Positions 4,649 through 32,314 of a stretch of 34,598 bases of DNA are shown one piece after another. Numbering within the stretch: position 1 is the stretch's first letter; every line of letters starts with the position of its first letter. The stretch lies in the NCBI GenBank assembly GCA_013377115.1, contig JACAAW010000021.1:1-34598 (forward strand), in the 5' to 3' direction. A program made the translations under genes and the position numbers. The notes beneath the pieces are model-generated. The model did no database searches and was not told the origin of the DNA. It was given only the letters and a program-made list of their open reading frames with translations. The stretch comes from Bacteroidota bacterium. Lineage in GTDB: Bacteria; Bacteroidota; Bacteroidia; Bacteroidales; CG2-30-32-10.

Positions 4649-5887
4649 CTAAAGTTTATAGGCAAATAGTTGTTTGTATTCATTTTCAGCTGTTTTCTTT
4701 TCGGTATAAAGAAAATATGCAACTCCGTTTCTGATTTTAATTTGGTCAATGAACACAAATTTCGAAATGGTAAAAGCGGTTCCTAACATTCCTGTTTCAG
4801 TATTTATTTCTTGAATGGTTGAAATTCCATCCTCTCTGTAAAGTGTATAAACTTTGTTTGTAATTTCATCCAAAAATATTTCTTTTCTCCATTTTTTCTT
4901 TTGGTGAAATTCAATACCTACTTCTTTAACAAAAACACCTTCTGATGTGTATTTCTCAATTTTGGAATCAACGAAATTGAAAATAAATGCGGAATCATTT
5001 ATTCTAATTAAGGGAGAATAAAGTGGTGAATAAAAACAAAGTTGCTCAAATCTTTCATCAGATTCAGTATAGCCATCCATACTCATTAGACGCGATTTGT
5101 CTTTTAATCTTCTGAGGGCCTTCTTGTCAGAAATAGTTCTGAACTCCGATTGTTTTTTTGTTTTGAAATTGTATTTAAAATACTGCAAAATTTGGTTGTT
5201 TGCGTTGAAATGCCGAAAATAATATTGGTCATAAATTGCTTGAACGCATGGCGATAATTTCGCTTCATAATCCTTACTTTCTGATGGATATAGCAATTGG
5301 ATTTTTGTGGAATCGTAATAAATTTGAAATCCATTCTCTTTTTCAATTAGATGGTTGTACCCCATACAATCTTTATAAATTTTTTCAGGTGAATTTACAT
5401 CGAGCGAGGTTACTGTATCTCCATTTAGCTTCAAAACTATTAATTCAGCTTTGTTTAGACTTCTATATTTGTAAGCTAAAAGCAAAATATTATCATTGTA
5501 AAAACTATAATCTTTTACATAAAGCGGCTTTCCTTTAATAATATTCTCCGGTTTTTTTGGAGTAATTGTTATTCCATTAAGTTCTGAAGATTGAGTTTCT
5601 AGAGAAATATTAATAATATTATTTGAATTTTCAATGGTGATTTGTTTTTCAGCATATCCAATATGAGAGAATGTAAGACATGAAGGAATTTGTTTAATAC
5701 TTATTTTGTAAAATCCATTTTGATTTGATTTTACTCCAAATTTGGAATTCTTCAAATAAATGTTTGCATTGCTAATGGCTTGTCCTGTTTTCGAATCAGT
5801 AATTTTTCCCGACAATATAAAATCAGTATTTTGTGCATTAATATTGATTGCAAACAGAAAAGTAAATATTAAACAAATTCCTTTCAT
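4649..5887 (-). CDS. Exported protein: carboxypeptidase-regulatory-like domain plus propeller-like region
   Basis: A 412-residue protein with a signal peptide (residues 1-19, ending INAQ). Residues about 22-110 are a carboxypeptidase D regulatory-like beta-sandwich of the kind found at the N-terminus of TonB-dependent receptors (GKITDSKTGQAISNANIYLK, later FSHIGYAEKQITI). The rest has repeating strand-rich stretches (for example YSFYNDNILLLAYKYRS, DSAFIFNFVDSKIEKYTSEG, NKVYTLYREDG) that look like a degenerate beta-propeller; this fold call is inference. No lipobox and no T9SS tail, so it is probably periplasmic. It starts 10 nt behind the plug-domain gene and is probably co-transcribed with it. 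Both proteins share the same kind of N-terminal domain, hinting at a joint function at the outer membrane. Confidence 0.78.
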   Translation of the reverse strand: MKGICLIFTFLFAININAQNTDFILSGKITDSKTGQAISNANIYLKNSKFGVKSNQNGFYKISIKQIPSCLTFSHIGYAEKQITIENSNNIINISLETQSSELNGITITPKKPENIIKGKPLYVKDYSFYNDNILLLAYKYRSLNKAELIVLKLNGDTVTSLDVNSPEKIYKDCMGYNHLIEKENGFQIYYDSTKIQLLYPSESKDYEAKLSPCVQAIYDQYYFRHFNANNQILQYFKYNFKTKKQSEFRTISDKKALRRLKDKSRLMSMDGYTESDERFEQLCFYSPLYSPLIRINDSAFIFNFVDSKIEKYTSEGVFVKEVGIEFHQKKKWRKEIFLDEITNKVYTLYREDGISTIQEINTETGMLGTAFTISKFVFIDQIKIRNGVAYFLYTEKKTAENEYKQLFAYKL

Positions 5888-5897
5888 AATTTCAATT

Positions 5898-6644
5898 TTA
5901 CATTGGTGAACTTTTCCTCATTTCTTTTGCTCTTTGTTCATTTAACCAATCGAAATAGCTTTTCGTTTCAATTACTACAACGCCACCAGTGAAATCCCCA
6001 TATTTCGCAGGAACACCTCCCGTATAAACAGTAACACTACCAATTGCGGTAGAAGGAATTCCCATATCCCCATTAATTTGCTTACAACCATCAACAATAT
6101 ATGCAACATCCCCAGATCTTGAACCTCTGAAATAAATTTCATCTCCATTATCACTTACTTTTATTTCAGAGGACATATTTCTAATAATTGAAGAAATATT
6201 TTTTGAATCTACCAAGTCGCTGATTTGGGCTGGTAAAATTGTTATATTTGATGGGTCTTCTGGTTTTATTAATCTATTTCCAAAAGCAGTAATTACTGGT
6301 CCATTTTTAATATCCACAGCTTTATTGCTCAAACAAATATTATCTATAGGAGTGAACTTATCTGGATTCACAATTACATTGCTTATTGTCCTAGATTGGT
6401 AACCAATAAAGCTTACAAAAACATTATAAACTCCCGGATTAAGTGGTTTAATAACAAAGTTTCCTTTACTATCAGAAGATGTTGCAACTTTTTGATCACC
6501 AACCTCCACATAAATTGTGGCTCCTGGAATTGTAAGATTGGTAGTTTTATCAACAATTTTTCCTTTTATTTCACCCATTGCTTGGGCAAAAATAATGTTT
6601 GAAATTCCAAACATTAATAAAAATGCAAGTGAGATTTTTTTCAT
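5898..6644 (-). CDS. TonB-dependent receptor plug-domain protein lacking a barrel
   Basis: A 248-residue exported protein. Residues 1-20 are a signal peptide; about 24-110 form a carboxypeptidase-regulatory-like domain (GEIKGKIVDKTTNLTIPGAT, FIGYQSRTI); about 120-232 resemble a TonB-receptor plug (SSIIRNMSSEIKVSDNGDEIYFRGSRSGDVAYIVDG, then SVTVYTGGVPAKYGDFTGGVVVIETK). Ordinary receptors continue for 500 or more residues of beta-barrel; here the protein ends 17 residues after the plug. The downstream frame is immediately taken over by a different gene, so I see no barrel remnant or frameshift. It cannot be a transporter alone. It leads a two-gene unit, with a -7 box at 6691-6684 and a direct repeat upstream. 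Confidence 0.85.
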   Translation of the reverse strand: MKKISLAFLLMFGISNIIFAQAMGEIKGKIVDKTTNLTIPGATIYVEVGDQKVATSSDSKGNFVIKPLNPGVYNVFVSFIGYQSRTISNVIVNPDKFTPIDNICLSNKAVDIKNGPVITAFGNRLIKPEDPSNITILPAQISDLVDSKNISSIIRNMSSEIKVSDNGDEIYFRGSRSGDVAYIVDGCKQINGDMGIPSTAIGSVTVYTGGVPAKYGDFTGGVVVIETKSYFDWLNEQRAKEMRKSSPM

Positions 6645-6683
6645 GGCTTTAAATTTTAGTTAGAAAATAATAATTGAATTAAT

Positions 6684-6691
6684 CAAATATA
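6684..6691 (-). promoter_or_regulatory. -7 box of the plug/propeller unit
   Basis: The minus strand reads TATATTTG, a perfect -7 element, 40 nt ahead of the start codon. At the expected -33 distance the strand reads TTTT rather than TTTG, so the upstream element is weak, which fits a promoter that needs an activator. Confidence 0.45.
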
Positions 6692-6723
6692 ATGTTTCAG
6701 ATTGCTTTTTAAAACAGCGTAAA

Positions 6724-6776
6724 AGTATTCGGTCCATTTAAAAAAGTTAAAGGTAGAAATGAGTCAGAATTCGGTC
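6724..6776. promoter_or_regulatory. Direct repeat upstream of the plug-gene promoter, possible operator
   Basis: AGTATTCGGTC (6724-6734) and AGAATTCGGTC (6766-6776) match at 10 of 11 positions. Both are followed by ATTT-like sequence and they are exactly 42 bp apart, close to four helical turns. They lie just upstream of the weak -33 region of the plug gene, where an activator would bind. No regulator is encoded next to them; the role is inferred. Confidence 0.35.
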
Positions 6777-7092
6777 ATTTTTTTGAAAGAATTTTTGTTG
6801 AAGTTTGATAAAAACCTTCATTTTTTTTCAAAATTTTTTTTAACTAATATTTCCAAAACTCAAATTTTATGATTTTAAGTTGAAAAAGACGAAATACATC
6901 TCCAAAAAATAGCTAAAAAACGCGGAATTGCATTTTATAATTTATATATCGAAAGTTGCATATGAAATAAAAATAAATGCAAAAAGGTTAAATATCTAGG
7001 TGTCTTGTATTAATATGCAAATTTCAAAATGAAACAATACAATATCAGGGTAAAAAAACACGATGAAATAAGTATAAAAATACATAAAAAAG

Positions 7093-9553: not shown

Positions 9554-9666
9554 ATTATAGTTATTTGAAATCTTTAAAATTAATGTTTTTCTAGGAGTTC
9601 AGGGATTTTTGAAAAATCAAAAAAAATCAAATCGCTATTAAATTGCATTTTATTTATCAAAAATTA

Positions 9667-9695
9667 TTGTTTCGTGCGAGAATTTACTATATTTG
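9667..9695 (+). promoter_or_regulatory. Promoter of the cold-shock gene
   Basis: TATATTTG at 9688-9695 is a perfect -7 box; TTG at 9667-9669 lies 18 nt upstream. Transcription should begin near 9702, leaving a leader of only about 20 nt before ATG 9721. This fixes the start of the gene. Confidence 0.65.
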
Positions 9696-9720
9696 CAATG
9701 TAATTTCTAACTTAATAACT

Positions 9721-9912
9721 ATGGCAACAGGTACAGTAAAATTTTTTAATCGTAAAAAAGGTTTTGGATTCATTGTTGAAGATGAATCACAGAAGGATAT
9801 TTTTGTTCATGTATCAGGTCTTTCTGACAAGATTCAGGATAATGACAAAGTTACTTTTGAAATAACTGAAGACGAAAAAGGTAAAAAAGCAATTGACGTT
9901 AAAAGAAGTTAA
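9721..9912 (+). CDS. Cold-shock domain protein (CspA family)
   Basis: A 63-residue single OB-fold protein that binds single-stranded RNA or DNA and melts secondary structure. RNP1 is KGFGFI (residues 13-18) and RNP2 is DIFVHV (26-31); the start MATGTVKFFN and the acidic C-terminal half are typical of short Bacteroidota cold-shock proteins. The frame is open upstream to an ATG at 9643, but a perfect promoter box (9688-9695) lies inside that extension and family members start at the MATGTVK position, so ATG 9721 is the true start. The short leader lacks room for the long thermosensor leader of E. coli cspA. A terminator follows 18 nt after the stop. Confidence 0.93.
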   Translation: MATGTVKFFNRKKGFGFIVEDESQKDIFVHVSGLSDKIQDNDKVTFEITEDEKGKKAIDVKRS

Positions 9913-9930
9913 TTATTTTTCCTAAGGATA

Positions 9931-9966
9931 AAAGAGGTTGTAATATTATTACAGCCTCTTTTTTTG
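9931..9966 (+). terminator. Terminator of the cold-shock gene
   Basis: AAAGAGG (9931-9937) with TGTAA pairs with TTACA and CCTCTTT (9955-9961) around a 5-nt loop with one G-T wobble, followed by a long T-run. The tail overlaps the spacing region of the next promoter. Confidence 0.85.
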
Positions 9967-9980
9967 TTATTTGGATTTGT

Positions 9981-9988
9981 TACCTTTG
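9981..9988 (+). promoter_or_regulatory. -7 box of the ABC-F gene
   Basis: TACCTTTG is a perfect TAnnTTTG match 19 nt before the start codon. No -33 element is found at the normal distance because the preceding terminator's T-run occupies it, so expression may be modest or read through from the cold-shock gene. Confidence 0.45.
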
Positions 9989-10007
9989 CCAAAATTTTAT
10001 CAGAATT

Positions 10008-11897
10008 ATGAATGTCCTTCTTGTCGAAAATCTTTCTAAATCTTATGGAGAGAAAATACTTTTCGAAAATATTACTTTTGGAATTGATTTAGGCAGCAAA
10101 ATAGCACTTATTGCAAAAAATGGAACCGGAAAAACTTCCCTATTAAATATTATTGTTGGAAAAGATATTCCTGATGATGGTAAAGTAGTATCAAGAAAAG
10201 ACATCAATATTTCCTATTTACCACAAAATCCTTCTTTTGATGAAAATGAAATTGTGGTTGATGTTTTGCTTCACACCGAAAATCCAGTTGTTAAGGCAAT
10301 AAAATATTACGAAAAAGTTACTTTATTTCACGATCACGAAAACCAAGAGGATTCTTTAAAAAAAATACAGGAAGCCACCGAGCAAATGGATATTTTGAAT
10401 GCTTGGGATTATGAATCGAAAATAAAAGAAGTCCTTTCTAAACTCGACATCAATAATATTGACAAACCAATTGGCGTGTTATCAGGCGGACAAAAAAAGC
10501 GTCTCGCATTAGCAAAAGTCCTGATAGAAGAACCCGATTTATTGATTTTGGATGAACCTACAAACCATTTGGACATTGAAATGATTGAGTGGCTGGAAGT
10601 ATTCCTTAACAAACAGAAAATCACATTACTTTTAGTTACCCACGACAGGTATTTTCTCGATAGGGTTTGTAACGAAGTAATTGAACTTGATAACGAAAAG
10701 ATTTACCAGTATAAAGGAAATTATACTTACTTTTTGGAAAAGAAGGCCGAACGCGAATTTAATGAAGCTCGTGAAATTGAAAAAGCCCGAAATTTATTGA
10801 AAACAGAGCTAGAATGGATGCGTCGAATGCCCCAAGCTAGAACTACCAAGTCTAAGGCTCGTATTGATTCGTTTTATGTTTTAAAAGATAAAGCATCTGC
10901 AAAAAATAATAACCAAGATATTAAGTTTACCGTAAATATGAACCGGATGGGAAGTAAAATTCTCGAACTTTCTAATATTTGCAAAAAATATGATGATTTA
11001 ATTTTACTGGAGAACTTTTCATATATATTTAAAAAGGGTGAAAAAATTGGTATTATCGGCGGCAATGGGATTGGAAAAAGTACCCTATTAAATATTATCA
11101 CTGAAAATATTAGGGCCGATGCTGGAAAAATTTCGGTTGGAGAAACGATTGTTTTTGGCTATTTTAATCAGGATGGTTTATCCGTAGATGAAGATAAAAC
11201 TGTTTTAGAAATTGTAAAAGACATTGCCGAATATATTCCTGTTGGCAAAGGAAGTAGTTTATCAGCTTCGCAGTTTTTGGTTTACTTTAATTTCCCTCAT
11301 GCAATTCAACACAATCCTTTTTCAAAATTAAGTGGCGGCGAAAGAAGGAGATTGCATTTGGTAACTGTATTGATGAAGAATCCCAATTTCCTCATTTTAG
11401 ATGAACCAACGAATGATTTAGATATCCACACCCTAAATGTTCTGGAGGATTTCTTAAATGAGTTTAATGGATGTGTTTTGATTGTTTCTCACGACAGGTA
11501 TTTTATTGATAAGATTGCTGATCATGTTTTTGTTTTTGAAGGCAATGGAAGAGTAAAAGACTTTTACGGTAATTACACAGATTACAATGTTTATAAGGAA
11601 GAACAATTAAATAAACAGCGCAATATTCAAAAGGAAACAAAGAGAATTGCCGAGCCAAAGCAAAATATTGAAGTAAAAAGCAAACCAACTTATAAAGAGC
11701 AAAAGGAATTCGAAGCCCTAGAATCGGATATTGCTTCATTAGAAGACGAAAAGAAAATACTTTTAGAGAAAATGAATCTCGAACCCCACAATTTTGAAAA
11801 TATCAATAAATGGTCGTTGAGAATTGGAGAAATTATGGAATCACTTGAGGAAAAAACAAATCGATGGATAGAACTTTCAGAAAAATTTGAAGTCTAG
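10008..11897 (+). CDS. uup: ABC-F family ATPase, Uup-like
   Basis: A 629-residue soluble protein with two ATP-binding cassettes and no membrane segments. ABC-F proteins act on the ribosome (E-site) and help with stalled or difficult translation; Uup is also tied to DNA-branch tolerance. Cassette 1: Walker A AKNGTGKTS (36-44), LSGGQ (158-162), Walker B ending in Asp182-Glu183 with PTNHLD. Cassette 2: GGNGIGKST (351-359), LSGGE (441-445), Asp465-Glu466 with PTNDLD. The linker between them (about 245-300) holds the basic RRMPQARTTKSKAR segment usual in Uup. Residues about 550-629 form a Lys/Glu-rich coiled coil, the Uup-type C-terminal domain. The first glycine of Walker A in cassette 1 is Ala. 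Its stop codon overlaps that of the convergent neighbour. Confidence 0.93.
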   Translation: MNVLLVENLSKSYGEKILFENITFGIDLGSKIALIAKNGTGKTSLLNIIVGKDIPDDGKVVSRKDINISYLPQNPSFDENEIVVDVLLHTENPVVKAIKYYEKVTLFHDHENQEDSLKKIQEATEQMDILNAWDYESKIKEVLSKLDINNIDKPIGVLSGGQKKRLALAKVLIEEPDLLILDEPTNHLDIEMIEWLEVFLNKQKITLLLVTHDRYFLDRVCNEVIELDNEKIYQYKGNYTYFLEKKAEREFNEAREIEKARNLLKTELEWMRRMPQARTTKSKARIDSFYVLKDKASAKNNNQDIKFTVNMNRMGSKILELSNICKKYDDLILLENFSYIFKKGEKIGIIGGNGIGKSTLLNIITENIRADAGKISVGETIVFGYFNQDGLSVDEDKTVLEIVKDIAEYIPVGKGSSLSASQFLVYFNFPHAIQHNPFSKLSGGERRRLHLVTVLMKNPNFLILDEPTNDLDIHTLNVLEDFLNEFNGCVLIVSHDRYFIDKIADHVFVFEGNGRVKDFYGNYTDYNVYKEEQLNKQRNIQKETKRIAEPKQNIEVKSKPTYKEQKEFEALESDIASLEDEKKILLEKMNLEPHNFENINKWSLRIGEIMESLEEKTNRWIELSEKFEV

Positions 11898-27703: not shown

Positions 27704-28006
27704 AAACTGCATTTTTTTTTGTTAATATTTACTTTAACAACTATTTCACTTTTTGCTTTTTTTTATAAGAAAAAATATTTTTTTTTGCATCCATAAAACA
27801 AATCCTAAAACTTGATAAAAACAGCCTAAAACTGGTTCAACACTACCGTTAACTTTTTGGTTCTTTTTTTTACTATTGTTTTTGTTTTATTTTATAATCT
27901 TATTTAATATTGTAAAAAAATTAAAATCTATTTGCAAGAATTTAAAAAATGTGTAACTTGTGCCGTTTTTCAATAATATAATTGATATAAAACTAATATT
28001 TTCACT
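27704..28006. other. AT-rich intergenic region
   Basis: This 303-nt gap has no credible gene. The first half is full of T-tracts and A-tracts (27711-27790) that could end transcription without a clear hairpin. The second half carries the promoter of the large T9SS cargo gene (27931-27961). Confidence 0.5.
27931..27961 (+). promoter_or_regulatory. Probable promoter of the T9SS cargo genes
   Basis: TTTG at 27931-27934, a 19-nt spacer and TAACTTGT at 27954-27961. The -7 box lacks one T of TAnnTTTG but the spacing is exact. The start codon is 46 nt further on. Confidence 0.45.
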
Positions 28007-30775
28007 ATGAAGAATAACAAACTATTTCTGAGGTTAGTAGCTCTAGTTTTCGTGAGCAGTATGTTGAATTTTGCTGTTGCAAACAATTCAATTGGCAAGG
28101 ACAAAGAAAAGAAAAACAAAAAAAATAGCCTTTCAAACCAAAAAACCATTAACTCCCTTGGTTTAACTTGGAAAGAAATTGGACCAGATGATTTAGGTGG
28201 CCGAACTAGAGCATTGCTTTTCGACAAAAATACTCCAACAACTCTTTATGCTGGAGCAGTTGGCGGAGGTCTATGGAAATCAAATTTTAATGGAACTTCA
28301 TGGAACAGGGTTACCAGCATTTCTGATAATATGGTAGTTTCTTGTATTGCTCAAGGTTCAAATGGTTACATTTATGTTGGAACAGGAGAAGGACTTGCAA
28401 TGCATACTGGAAATGCAAATGGCAGTACTGGTTTTATTGGAGGTGGTATCTACCGCTCTACTGATGGAATTAATTTTACTTTGCTTACAGCAACTATTCC
28501 TGGAACTGCAAACAATATTAATTCTACCTGGGCATTTGTAAATGATATTACAGTAGATGCATCGAATAAAATATTTGCCGCAACAAACAAAGGTTTAATG
28601 ATGTCTTTAGATAATGGCGACACTTGGATAAATGTCAAAAATACCAATAACGTTTCCTTAACTTCAAATTCTACTGACGTTTCTACAGCTCCTGATGGAA
28701 CTGTCATTGCATCAGTTGGAACAAATTGTTATATATCTAGTAATGGTGCTGATGGAAGTTTTGCTAACGTTTCATCAAATGGTTTACCAAATACAGGAAT
28801 CGGTCGCGCTGAATTTGCAATTGCACCTTCAAACAGCAACTATTTATATGCATCATTATCAGATTCTGTTACTGGAAAATTAAAAGGCATTTATCGCTCA
28901 ATTGATAAAGGTGCCACATGGACTGTTATTGGTCCAGGAAATAGTACTCTGTTTCAACCATTTGGAAATTTTGGAACTAGTCCAAATTTCACAGGAAATG
29001 GCAGTTATTCAAATACACTCAAAGTATTTCCTAATAATCCAGATAAAATATTACTTGGCGGAACCAATTTATGGGTATGGCAAAATGGTGGAAATTGGCA
29101 ACAAAGAACTTCTCCTGAAACTTTAATACCAATGAATCATCATACTTATGTTTTTCATCCAACTGATCCAAATATTGTTCTTATTGGCACTGATGGTGGA
29201 ATTTATGAAAGTCTCGATGGCTGTAATGCTTCATTTATTCCATTGAATACAAAGTACAATACAATGCAATTTGTTTCTGTTGCTCCTACTAATTCTAAAA
29301 TTGTTATTGGAGGAACTCAAAATAGTGGAAATTTAATGTTAAACGGGCTTGACACAATGCCACCAGTCCAAATGCCAGGAATTACTCTTTCCTTAAATTT
29401 ACTTGATAATAATAATGCAGGAGGATACACTTGTGTTTCTAAAATAAATAAGGATGCATATTTTATTTCTGATGTTTATGGAGCTGCAAAGCGGACTCCG
29501 GATGCAAATGCATTTTCTTCATTTTTACCAGCGAAGATTACAACTGGTCTTGTGAGTAATGTTGCTAATGCAAGCTATATCGCACCTATGATTTTATGGG
29601 AAAGCATCAATGATCAAAATAGCACAGAGAATATTCAATATATAGCACCAGATACAATTTTGGCTGGAACAACAATTGAGTTAGCTAGCTCAAATTACTC
29701 TTATCCATTTCATTACACAACGCCTACCACAATATTAATGGATGACACAATACAAATTAGAGATATTGTTCAAACAAAATTATTTTTAGGAACAAAAGAT
29801 GCAGTATGGATGACAAAGAAAGCACTTGATTTTACAACCACAACTCCACAATGGTTTAAAATTGGAGCAATATCAGGTTTACCGCAATCAATGGCTTATT
29901 CTTCAGATGGAAATTATCTATTTGTTGGAACTTCAGCAGGTAATCTTTATAGAATTTCTAATTTATTACAATCAATTGATTCTTTAAACACTGATATTAC
30001 CTCGCCATTCTCTGTAATTGAAAAATCATTATTAACAGGATTAAGTGCAAGTGGCAGAGCAATTACATCCATTACAGTTGATCCAAGTGATCCAACTAAA
30101 GTACTTGTTACTTTGGGTGGTTATGGTAACACAAACTATATTTACCAAACAGTAAATGCACTTGATGAATTCCCAACTTTTGTTGCAAAACAAGGTGATT
30201 TGCCATTAATGCCTGTTTACTCATCAATTCATATTGCAAATAATGCAAATACTGTTTTATTAGGAACAGAAAAAGGCGTTTATTCTACTTCAAATATTGA
30301 TTCAGCAAACCCAACTTGGGCTTTTGAATCTTCACCTGAAATGGGAAATACTCCAGTATATATGTTAACTCAGCAGGTAAATAATTTCAATAGTGTTGTT
30401 CCAGGGACTTCAAACTGGGGATACATCTACGCTGCAACTCACGGAAGAGGAATTTTTCAATGTGATAAATATTACGTAAATCTAACTGACATCAATGAAA
30501 TTTCACCAAGTATTGTAGCAAACAACATTAATATTTTCCCAAATCCTGCATCAAATCAAACAAACATTAAATTTGAACTAAAACAAAATTCTAATGTAAT
30601 TGTAAATATTTTAGGAATTGATGGTAGAATAGTAAAGAATATTCTCAATAAAAAATTACAAAACGGTGTCAATCAAATTTCAATTGATTGCAATGACTTA
30701 TCAGTTGGAACTTATTTCGTGCAGTTAATTTCAAATGAAAATGTTTCTTGTTCAAAATTTGTTGTAATAAAATAA
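28007..30775 (+). CDS. T9SS-exported BNR/sortilin-like beta-propeller protein
   Basis: A 922-residue protein with an N-terminal signal peptide (1-26, ending NFAVA). Most of it (about 45-830) is a repeated beta-propeller with Asp-box (BNR) motifs, for example STDG, SLDNGDTW and SIDKGATW, like the sortilin/VPS10-type repeats of secreted Bacteroidota proteins; the family includes glycosidases and binding proteins, and no catalytic site can be assigned. The last ~80 residues are a type A T9SS sorting domain: INIFPNPASNQTNIKFEL, a central GIDGRIVKNI, and LSVGTYFVQLISNE with a final KFVVIK. It should thus cross the outer membrane by T9SS and stay at the surface or be released. A second T9SS cargo gene follows 57 nt behind without a terminator. 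Confidence 0.9.
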   Translation: MKNNKLFLRLVALVFVSSMLNFAVANNSIGKDKEKKNKKNSLSNQKTINSLGLTWKEIGPDDLGGRTRALLFDKNTPTTLYAGAVGGGLWKSNFNGTSWNRVTSISDNMVVSCIAQGSNGYIYVGTGEGLAMHTGNANGSTGFIGGGIYRSTDGINFTLLTATIPGTANNINSTWAFVNDITVDASNKIFAATNKGLMMSLDNGDTWINVKNTNNVSLTSNSTDVSTAPDGTVIASVGTNCYISSNGADGSFANVSSNGLPNTGIGRAEFAIAPSNSNYLYASLSDSVTGKLKGIYRSIDKGATWTVIGPGNSTLFQPFGNFGTSPNFTGNGSYSNTLKVFPNNPDKILLGGTNLWVWQNGGNWQQRTSPETLIPMNHHTYVFHPTDPNIVLIGTDGGIYESLDGCNASFIPLNTKYNTMQFVSVAPTNSKIVIGGTQNSGNLMLNGLDTMPPVQMPGITLSLNLLDNNNAGGYTCVSKINKDAYFISDVYGAAKRTPDANAFSSFLPAKITTGLVSNVANASYIAPMILWESINDQNSTENIQYIAPDTILAGTTIELASSNYSYPFHYTTPTTILMDDTIQIRDIVQTKLFLGTKDAVWMTKKALDFTTTTPQWFKIGAISGLPQSMAYSSDGNYLFVGTSAGNLYRISNLLQSIDSLNTDITSPFSVIEKSLLTGLSASGRAITSITVDPSDPTKVLVTLGGYGNTNYIYQTVNALDEFPTFVAKQGDLPLMPVYSSIHIANNANTVLLGTEKGVYSTSNIDSANPTWAFESSPEMGNTPVYMLTQQVNNFNSVVPGTSNWGYIYAATHGRGIFQCDKYYVNLTDINEISPSIVANNINIFPNPASNQTNIKFELKQNSNVIVNILGIDGRIVKNILNKKLQNGVNQISIDCNDLSVGTYFVQLISNENVSCSKFVVIK

Positions 30776-30832: not shown

Positions 30833-32314
30833 ATGAAAAGAAGTTTGTTTACCTTGTTTTTTATAATATTTGCAATTCAGATATTTGCTAACACAACAAT
30901 TTATGCTCCTACTCTGAATTCTCCTGCAAATGGTGCTATTGATCAAATGCCCAATGCCCTTTTAGATTGGTCGGCTGTTTCAGGAGCAACCTCGTATGAA
31001 GTTCAAATAGATCAAGATTCGTTGTTCCCAGCGCCAACATCTTATATTGCAACTGTTACTGCAAAAAATGCTTCGGAATTACTCTTTAATACCAAATATT
31101 ATTGGAGAGTTCGGGCTCTTTCGACTGCTGGTAATTCTGGATGGTCAACTTTTAGAAATTTCACCACAATCGTTAAAATAACCAATTTAACCTCTCCAAA
31201 TAATGGAGCTACGAATATCACTCCACAATTCGACTTAGAATGGACAGCAATTACAGGAGTTACAAATTACGATTACCAAATTGACACTTCTAGTACTTTC
31301 AGCAGTTCCATATTGGTTTATGGATCTGTATCAGGAACCACGCCTAAATATACAACCAATAACTTGTTATATGGAACGCAGCATTATTGGAGAATTCGTG
31401 CCAGACATAGTTTTGATACAACCATTTGGACACCATCAAGAAATTTCACCACTCTAGATTCTTTAAATTTGACATCTCCTGCAAATAATGCAACAAATCA
31501 ATCTATCGTTCCAGAATTAAAATGGAGCTTGGTAAAAGGATCATCAAAATATGAAGTTCAAGTTGATTTAACAAATTCTTTTAATACTCCTTCATTAATT
31601 TCCTCAACTGTTGTAGCAGTTCCTTGGTCGGCAGCTGTTAATACACAATCCATTATTTGCGACACTTTAAACTTTGGCTTACAATATTTTTGGAGAGTCA
31701 GGTCAATAAATAATAATGATACTTCAAAATGGTCAGCTGTATGGAAACTTCAAACAATCAATGCTGTTAATATGATTTATCCTTTAAATGGTTCAACATG
31801 GATAGAAACAAATCCTAAATTTAATTGGGATGCTATTGCTGGAATTAATGGTTATACATTAACCTGGAGCACATCTCCAAGTTATGCTTCTGCTACCACA
31901 GTGAACATTGCTGCAAATACTAGTGAATATTCTGTAAATAATTTGGGAATAGGCGTGAAATATTATTGGAAAGTAGTTGCCAAGACAAATAGTGATACTT
32001 CAATTGTTAATAGCTTTTCTTTTACTACAAAATGGGGTGTTGGAATTGAAACTACAACTTTAAACCCATCAAATATTAAAGTTTATCCAAATCCATCAAA
32101 AGGAAAATTTACAGTAAAAGTAGAAACCTCAAATTCATTAAGCGTAGACTTAAGCATTTCAAATTTAGTAGGTCAAACTGTTTATACTGAAGATTTAACC
32201 ATCAATGGATTATTTACAAAAGAAATCAATTTAAGTAGCCTTCCAAAAGGAATTTACTTTCTTAAATTAGAAGATGGAAAAAGCTCAAACATTCAAAAAT
32301 TCATCATTCAATAA
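30833..32314 (+). CDS. T9SS-exported protein with four fibronectin III-like repeats
   Basis: A 493-residue protein with a signal peptide (1-19). Four similar repeats of about 90-100 residues follow (about 25-112, 115-207, 210-309, 312-400), each with L-x-SP-x-NGA or similar opening, a W-x-AV-x-G-x-Y-x-(V/L) strand and Y-WRVRA; they resemble fibronectin III modules. The final ~80 residues are a type A sorting domain (IKVYPNPSKGKFTVKVE, SNLVGQTVYTEDL, LPKGIYFLKLEDGK, KFIIQ). It is probably a surface adhesin or scaffold. It is in tandem with the propeller protein; the 57-nt gap holds only an AT hairpin, so both are probably made from one transcript. A strong terminator follows. Confidence 0.9.
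   Translation: MKRSLFTLFFIIFAIQIFANTTIYAPTLNSPANGAIDQMPNALLDWSAVSGATSYEVQIDQDSLFPAPTSYIATVTAKNASELLFNTKYYWRVRALSTAGNSGWSTFRNFTTIVKITNLTSPNNGATNITPQFDLEWTAITGVTNYDYQIDTSSTFSSSILVYGSVSGTTPKYTTNNLLYGTQHYWRIRARHSFDTTIWTPSRNFTTLDSLNLTSPANNATNQSIVPELKWSLVKGSSKYEVQVDLTNSFNTPSLISSTVVAVPWSAAVNTQSIICDTLNFGLQYFWRVRSINNNDTSKWSAVWKLQTINAVNMIYPLNGSTWIETNPKFNWDAIAGINGYTLTWSTSPSYASATTVNIAANTSEYSVNNLGIGVKYYWKVVAKTNSDTSIVNSFSFTTKWGVGIETTTLNPSNIKVYPNPSKGKFTVKVETSNSLSVDLSISNLVGQTVYTEDLTINGLFTKEINLSSLPKGIYFLKLEDGKSSNIQKFIIQ

Follow-up and report, generated by a model that had tools for sequence, protein, structure and literature searches.

Positions 1 to 34,598 of contig JACAAW010000021.1 of a Bacteroidota bacterium (assembly GCA_013377115.1, order Bacteroidales), a stretch here called the window, carry on its minus strand a gene for the plug of a TonB-dependent receptor without the barrel, followed by a gene for a second exported protein with a predicted beta-propeller body. 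We found that this receptor plug without a barrel is a protein family of its own. The results also support that the plug and propeller genes are one conserved unit, which is found in other uncultured Bacteroidales.

Barrel-less plug proteins form a family of their own

With a profile made from three plug-only proteins, we searched 295 genomes of the order (E ≤ 1e-22). The strong set contained 24 matches (E ≤ 3.2e-50) in 23 genomes, with frames of 228 to 313 residues, and these plug-only relatives likewise end shortly after the plug, without a barrel. The weaker set (8.1e-44 and above) consisted mostly of frames of about 1200 to 1280 residues, which are full-length receptors, together with some shorter frames; the shortest, of 283 residues (G265), runs into a contig end, and another (G289) has 373 residues. 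A search of 395 genomes of the phylum (E ≤ 1e-35) gave at least two further plug-only frames, of 244 aa (G341) and 281 aa (G337), and a search with a single plug protein as the query found no relatives. Many of the genomes searched are incomplete, and they are not independent. Absences in all these searches are soft, since only the best first-look candidates per genome were scored (nine for the plug in the order, seven in the phylum, and six each for the propeller and the anti-sigma factor) and the phylum matches are those listed.

In total, 31 distinct plug-only genes were compared, comprising 25 alignment rows, two genes from the phylum search and four from named loci (L165 is nearly identical to L093). 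The receptor set consisted of 55 N-termini gathered along the way, without systematic sampling. In the maximum-likelihood tree, a branch with 100/100 support separates the 31 plug-only rows from the 55 receptors; the branch of one plug-only row, L160, is very long. The two groups also differ at single positions. E226 occurs in 30 of the 31 plug-only rows and Y230 in 25, and neither is found in the 54 receptor rows that have a letter there (0%); E226 combined with Y or F at position 230 occurs in 30/31 plug-only rows and in 0/55 receptors. Further plug-only residues are F172 (26/31; 0% of receptors) and Y207 (31/31; 9% of receptors). For the single close pair measured, L164/L165, the ratio of nonsynonymous to synonymous substitution rates (dN/dS) of the plug gene was 0.087, next to 0.036 for the sigma gene, 0.097 for the anti-sigma gene, 0.063 for the propeller gene and 0.062 for a neighbouring gene.

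An earlier note on this DNA had considered that the window copy would be a truncation if its homologues ran on into a full barrel in close relatives. This did not occur: because the 100/100 branch splits the 31 plug-only rows from the 55 receptors, the window copy is not a truncation, and a truncated receptor is ruled out by this branch, the C-terminal signature and the dN/dS together. Homologous plugs do exist in full-length receptors, as a decaying fragment of a receptor gene would have it. Nevertheless, given a single supported family with a common C-terminal signature, the dN/dS value (one pair), the kept pairing and the common upstream motif described below, we consider such decay practically negligible as an explanation.

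Architecture of the plug protein and its partner

The two open reading frames (ORFs) are separated by 10 nt (Table 1). The composition of the 248-residue protein agrees with what had been read from its sequence earlier, namely a signal peptide, a regulatory-like domain and a plug. In the Pfam scan, the plug domain scored 32.2 bits, above its cut-off of 23.9, and no barrel family, whether of TonB-dependent transporters or of SusC, appeared at E ≤ 1. The tail after the plug had been put at 17 residues; by the Pfam boundary at residue 222 it has 26, and the partner gene starts directly beyond the spacer. The AlphaFold2 model of the protein (15-row alignment) has a mean predicted local distance difference test (pLDDT) score of 74.1. 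Residues 128 to 230 of the model superpose on the plug of SusC BT1763, with Z 10.6 and a root mean square deviation (rmsd) of 2.5 over 101 residues for 6z9a_B, and Z 9.9 and rmsd 3.1 over 111 residues for 6zlt_B, and its N-terminal part superposes on the NTE of SusC BT3090 (9hfj, Z 11.3). The Foldseek list was dominated by the N-terminal domain, and the plug match comes from a later VIA superposition.

Table 1. Features of the plug-propeller gene pair and its upstream region in the window.
Feature	Position	Strand	Basis
Plug-only gene (P0001), 248 aa	5898-6644	-	ORF; 1 of 31 distinct plug-only proteins
Signal peptide, residues 1-21, without lipobox cysteine	6582-6644	-	By reading the sequence; Q21 invariant in 25/25 rows
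NTE/CarboxypepD_reg domain, residues 26-101	6342-6569	-	PF13620 E 2.1e-15, also PF13715; fold match 9hfj
TonB plug domain, residues 131-222	5979-6254	-	PF07715, 32.2 bits; fold match 6z9a_B
Family signature ETKSYF, residues 226-231, where receptors continue towards the barrel	5952-5969	-	Alignment
Predicted C-terminal helix, residues 230-245	5910-5957	-	AlphaFold2 model, pLDDT about 71-75 there
NTE-propeller partner gene (P0002), 412 aa	4649-5887	-	ORF; homologues adjoin plug-only genes
Partner NTE/CarbopepD_reg_2 domain, residues 25-107	5567-5815	-	PF13715 E 2.5e-16
Predicted beta-propeller body of partner, residues 110-412	4652-5560	-	Model pLDDT 85.6; propeller matches Z 12.7-14.1
Direct repeats ACCTTTAACTT-N10-ACCGAATACTT, 21-bp period, LytTR-like by resemblance	6723-6754	-	Matrix score, genome pattern
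TATATTTG, putative -7 element	6684-6691	-	Noticed by eye

The partner had been described as a second exported protein with the same kind of N-terminal domain and a strand-rich body, and this description was borne out. Its sequence begins with a signal peptide without a lipobox cysteine, by reading, and no Pfam family scored above its cut-off in the body. In an AlphaFold2 model of mean pLDDT 85.6, again from a 15-row alignment, the body (about residues 110 to 412) superposed on beta-propellers with Z 12.7 to 14.1 and rmsd 3.4 to 4.5 among the matches listed, the best of them being a VIA superposition with Z 14.1 over 246 residues; the predicted fold of the body is therefore that of a propeller. 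Since both proteins have signal peptides and neither has a lipobox cysteine, as judged by reading, the plug and propeller proteins are probably soluble in the periplasm. The N-terminal residues 5 to 110 of one partner homologue (L092) weakly match the NCBIfam model of BamP (NF053692), which is known from Flavobacterium johnsoniae (PMC12611786, in part). At 22.7 bits this lies far under the cut-off of 230, and the propeller body is not covered, so identity with BamP was rejected; for the window pair, NF053692 was not among the matches at E ≤ 1.

Oar/SusC-type TonB-dependent receptors, as presented in the accessible portions of PMC6434023 and PMC7782687, likewise have an NTE followed by a plug, and the plug fold matches that of SusC BT1763. 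The plug-only protein differs from them by lacking the barrel, by its own C-terminal signature, by a rarer Ton-box pattern and by its propeller partner. The likeness would fit a mobile gate, in which the free plug inserts in trans into a plugless barrel or competes with the plug of a receptor, and the propeller loads or retrieves it. The plug-core residues G174, D185, A213, G216 and D217 are each kept in 31/31 plug-only rows, the model superposes on the SusC plug, and in G155 and G111 the closest full-length receptor lies downstream of similar repeats (see below). However, the stretch that leads to the barrel is replaced by the family-specific ETKSYF and a predicted helix, and no barrel gene recurs beside the pair in the ORF lists, which were inspected by eye without a barrel-model scan or a search for plugless barrels. 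We regard a mobile gate as unlikely.

At the place of the Ton box, a D/E-hydrophobic-hydrophobic pattern was found in 11/31 plug-only proteins versus 42/55 receptors. A stricter pattern gave 4/31 versus 31/55, yet only 5/17 among the closest receptors; both patterns are rough, and an argument built on the Ton box was dropped as too weak. The suggestion that the free plug delivers to TonB thus has little sequence support.

The plug and propeller genes are a conserved unit

A propeller gene lies downstream on the same strand in 27 of the 31 plug-only cases. The earlier note had proposed that the two proteins form one system and that their pairing might be conserved in Bacteroidota genomes; the conserved unit stands, while binding and common function can only be inferred. 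By gene order, the 31 genes fall into 13 plug-sigma-anti-sigma-propeller operons, 14 plug-propeller pairs, two plug-sigma-anti-sigma loci and two genes alone. The window pair is of the two-gene kind, without adjoining sigma genes, and in another such pair (L101, genome G191) the propeller gene is cut by the contig end. As for the plug-sigma-anti-sigma loci, L085 has its propeller gene on another contig (L046) and L159 has none adjacent. The lone genes are L160 and a second copy in L097, a locus with plug-only genes at 6138-6827 and 9649-10323, only the first of which has a propeller gene after it.

Among the 295 genomes, 23 have a plug-only gene and 25 have a propeller homologue at E ≤ 5.4e-112, a cut picked after viewing the list, with 22 genomes in common (Fisher p 6e-29, which ignores the relatedness of the genomes). 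The 23rd plug-only genome is G191, with its contig-cut propeller gene next door. Fifteen named loci were also found with the propeller profile; all are metagenome-assembled genomes of Bacteroidales, Bacteroidetes or Bacteroidia bacteria, and 10 of them duplicate other contigs and were counted once. Fourteen have an upstream plug gene, 11 of these with sigma and anti-sigma genes in between, and the fifteenth (L175) begins at a contig edge. A mirror-tree comparison of plug and propeller gave r 0.433, reached by 8/5000 permutations, a weak signal that is uncorrected for the species tree. In another locus (L180, 5638-8196), two propeller homologues stand in tandem with no plug-only gene next to them; the four-gene operon occurs elsewhere in the same genome. 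In published titles and abstract openings, with subscription journals thinly and preprints not covered, no free-standing plug protein with such a partner was found.

About half of the plug-only genes adjoin a sigma switch with a promoter-like motif

Genes for an extracytoplasmic function (ECF) sigma factor and a membrane anti-sigma protein with TPR repeats stand beside the plug-only gene in 15/31 cases. The one sigma protein scanned is of the ECF type (TIGR02937, 76.6 bits versus a cut-off of 42.9). In the gene after it, Pfam recognised TPR repeats and no FecR family in both members scanned; one membrane span and an anti-sigma-like N-terminus were recognised by reading, and no Pfam family backed this N-terminus.

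The search for upstream motifs covered every sigma locus except L165, which leaves 12 four-gene operons together with L085 and L159, 14 of 15 in all. Gapped words were common to 6/14 of these upstreams, compared with two to four in ten shuffles, and they led to the promoter-like motif TTATGGAA-N12-14-GGCATCT. This motif is present in 10/14 sigma loci with at most two mismatches of 15 and in 14/14 with at most four; the best among 720 shuffled upstreams had three mismatches (33 times), and none had two or fewer. The motif also precedes the lone plug gene L160 (0 mismatches), a lone sigma gene in L183 (1) and, weakly, the separate propeller gene L046 (3), and the remaining upstreams without sigma have 3 to 6 mismatches, like the shuffles. 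In 16 genomes, the exact short pattern TTATGGAA-N12-14-GGCA had 93 matches versus 24 for the reversed control. Fifty of the 93 were examined: four precede plug-only genes (L196, L215, L222 and L204, the last lying inside an over-long ORF call), 42 are inside ORFs, and four are between ORFs (L202, L221, L228 and L233); of these four, only L228 is followed by an ORF within 250 bp. Four of the 43 others are further plug or sigma sites. No further target of a wider sigma regulon was found among the 50 examined, and the visible target of the sigma motif thus appears to be its own operon.

This arrangement, in which the genes of an ECF sigma factor and its membrane anti-sigma partner adjoin that of a receptor-derived protein, resembles the FecA-FecR-FecI system (PMC11637429, in part). 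Unlike FecA, the plug protein has no barrel, and Pfam scans of three plug proteins (window, L083 and L159) revealed no STN domain; the two anti-sigma proteins scanned have TPR repeats and no FecR family, and the window pair lacks adjoining sigma genes. A further homologue of the propeller, with an extra N-terminal stretch, stands directly after FecI-like and FecR genes (L192, 5786-9103), a place in which one would expect a signalling receptor. An STN domain seemed present there by eye and was not confirmed by Pfam. Barrel-less cell-surface signalling, in which plug and propeller serve solely to feed signals to the anti-sigma factor and read TonB energisation or a periplasmic ligand, would account for the operon in 15/31 cases, for the common motif and for L192. 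Against this account, which we consider rather unlikely, stand the lack of STN in the three scanned plug proteins, the Ton-box-like pattern in only 11/31, and the 14/31 two-gene pairs without adjoining sigma genes; among the two-gene genomes in the 295, an anti-sigma match at E ≤ 1e-25 was found in that of the window alone, at another place of the genome.

In the window's genome, contig C35 (L158, 5154-7035) carries a related sigma/anti-sigma-TPR pair without the promoter motif upstream. Considered as the lost partner of the window pair, the C35 sigma factor sits among the operon sigma factors of the tree without support. The C35 anti-sigma protein contains a Ton-box-like stretch, EDEVVVTSS. 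A conserved segment of the anti-sigma proteins near YxxDLKxxDY was tried as a plug-binding site and dropped, because it seems to track the clade rather than the plug. In L184 (5222-9146), the plug's position before a sigma/anti-sigma pair is occupied by a VWA/YfbK protein that shares the N-terminal domain of the plug and propeller proteins, and a VWA/YfbK gene with this domain is inserted in the plug operon of L100 (4192-6123).

LytTR-like repeats in the form without sigma genes

Boxes like ACCGTTAACTT (at most two mismatches) were found in the 400-bp upstreams of plug genes without adjacent sigma genes, 14 boxes in 10/16 upstreams, and none in the 14 sigma loci; shuffles had a mean of 1.5 and a maximum of 6. 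In L084, L086 and L094, two boxes lie 21 bp apart, and the second box of the window has three mismatches. A matrix derived from 20 other sites gave the window site a score of 21.3, the highest of any position in the window, compared with maxima of 0.7 to 15.6 in ten shuffles. LytTR direct repeats are mostly 12 bp apart, and Bacteroides examples have 11-bp repeats 11 bp apart (PMC6193735, in part). The window likewise has 11-bp direct repeats upstream of the gene, 10 bp apart, and by this resemblance they may be LytTR-like sites. Between them and the plug gene, TATATTTG, a putative -7 element noticed by eye, fits the Bacteroidota -7 sequence TAnnTTTG.

In the 4-Mb genome of the window, a looser pattern, adjusted to the site of the window itself, had three matches, and the reversed control none; they concern the plug gene, a gene whose product has a type IX sorting tail, and a GWxTD gene. 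This pattern was absent from five four-gene genomes and from G002, G248, G254, G162, G001 and G004, and had one match in G163, inside an ORF. A strict repeat-pair pattern gave 22 matches in 7/15 genomes, and its reversed control gave no match. The 22 include the three plug loci that supplied the pattern (G155, G003 and G143); two matches overlap, and three are inside ORFs of 67 to 186 residues. Strict pairs precede the closest full-length receptor in G155 and G111, TonB (PF03544) and a VWA/CarboxypepD_reg protein in G003, a C10 peptidase and a Por_Secre_tail protein in G210, a C25 peptidase in G001 (a relative without a plug-only match) and the GWxTD protein in the window genome, and several other downstream genes are without telling annotation. 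When the 14 loci of the closest receptor were scanned with up to three mismatches, scattered single boxes were found, and a near pair only in L115. Regulation of the closest receptor by the same repeats may thus hold in G155 and G111, and does not appear general. LytTR response regulators are encoded near this receptor in L105, L109 and L115.

In G003, the TonB gene (L251) and the plug pair (L245) carry the same upstream repeats, as might be expected if the free plug were a decoy that occupies TonB and so tunes the energy supply of receptors; the weak Ton-box-like pattern (11/31) speaks against such a decoy, which we consider highly unlikely. The 27-bp repeat pair of G003 is identical to the letter at four places (L245, L251, L256 and L264).

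Further observations concern other genes. The second-best matrix position in the window, 27824-27855 on the plus strand, scored 12.1 (one of ten shuffles was higher) and lies 152 bp before a type IX cargo gene, which encodes a 922-aa protein with a type IX sorting tail (28007-30775, plus strand); a second protein with such a tail is encoded at 30833-32314. In L105 to L119 (e.g., L106, 5488-14532), a receptor of about 1230 aa is followed by an exported protein of about 1300 aa, usually once per genome where found. In L106 this protein has a weak PorZ/PorU tail match, and a PorV-family protein is also encoded there.

A possible role as an accessory pair

From the observed family, predicted folds, pairing, operon, promoter-like motif and repeats, we tentatively propose that plug and propeller are a periplasmic accessory pair of the outer-membrane transport or secretion machinery, with sigma feedback in the four-gene form, a reading that we consider possible. 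A receptor plug would have lost its barrel and become its own family, and the NTE-propeller protein would work with it, perhaps by binding. The four-gene form is probably the older one; there, the pair flanks the ECF sigma factor and the membrane anti-sigma factor with its periplasmic TPR domain, and the sigma factor would drive the operon from its own promoter. The free plug and propeller, by binding to the anti-sigma factor, would keep it closed, a step that we liken to the protection reported for Pseudomonas, where the signalling domain of a receptor shields the anti-sigma factor from proteolysis when no signal is present (PMC11637429, in part). Periplasmic clients, such as receptors, TonB-linked proteins or type IX cargo, would titrate the pair by occupying it, so that sigma is released and more of the pair is made. 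In the window lineage, where the switch is missing from the operon, a LytTR-like regulator that binds the repeats may set the supply together with that of type IX cargo.

Three observations lead us to prefer this accessory pair with feedback: the sigma motif has no target in sight other than its own operon; in other lineages, similar repeats lie upstream of the pair as well as of cargo, TonB or receptor genes; and in L192 the FecI-like and FecR genes are followed by a propeller homologue.

Several observations weigh against it. At E ≤ 1e-25, a propeller homologue is present in 48/295 genomes, 25 of them without a plug-only match, and G102, G183 and G139 have strong propellers without a plug gene in the surrounding stretch (L177 to L179). 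A sigma/anti-sigma pair without a plug gene exists in L183, and the YxxDLKxxDY segment cannot be called plug-binding, because it is partly recognisable in L184, with its VWA protein in the place of the plug. The promoter motif and the repeat box were both derived from the same upstreams in which they were counted; with at most four mismatches, 204/720 shuffles pass, and L093, L100, L169 and L171 reach only 3 to 4. Of the 93 pattern matches, 8 precede plug or sigma genes, and most of the 50 examined fall inside ORFs, so that a wider regulon was not seen and yet may exist; 6/16 upstreams without sigma have no box. In the window genome, which is 94% complete, the search at E 1e-22 found no full-length receptor like the closest one. 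Finally, the gene-order states need four changes on the plug tree and three on the propeller tree.

A further reading is a sensing and control circuit, in which a free plug that mimics a receptor plug, together with the propeller, reports receptor or cargo traffic in the periplasm to the ECF sigma factor, and in which other lineages have passed the pair on to a two-component regulator of the secretion programme; we consider it improbable. If true, such a circuit would give Bacteroidota a novel type of envelope-quality sensor and the plug fold a new use.

Plugs are usually seen as parts of transporters; here they are a conserved stand-alone family with a usual partner, about half of them with a sigma switch and a common motif. 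Given a cultured host, the system could be tested by way of its motif, repeats and signature residues. If the pair senses or serves receptors and cargo, it would offer a handle on how receptor-rich Bacteroidota watch and supply their outer membrane.

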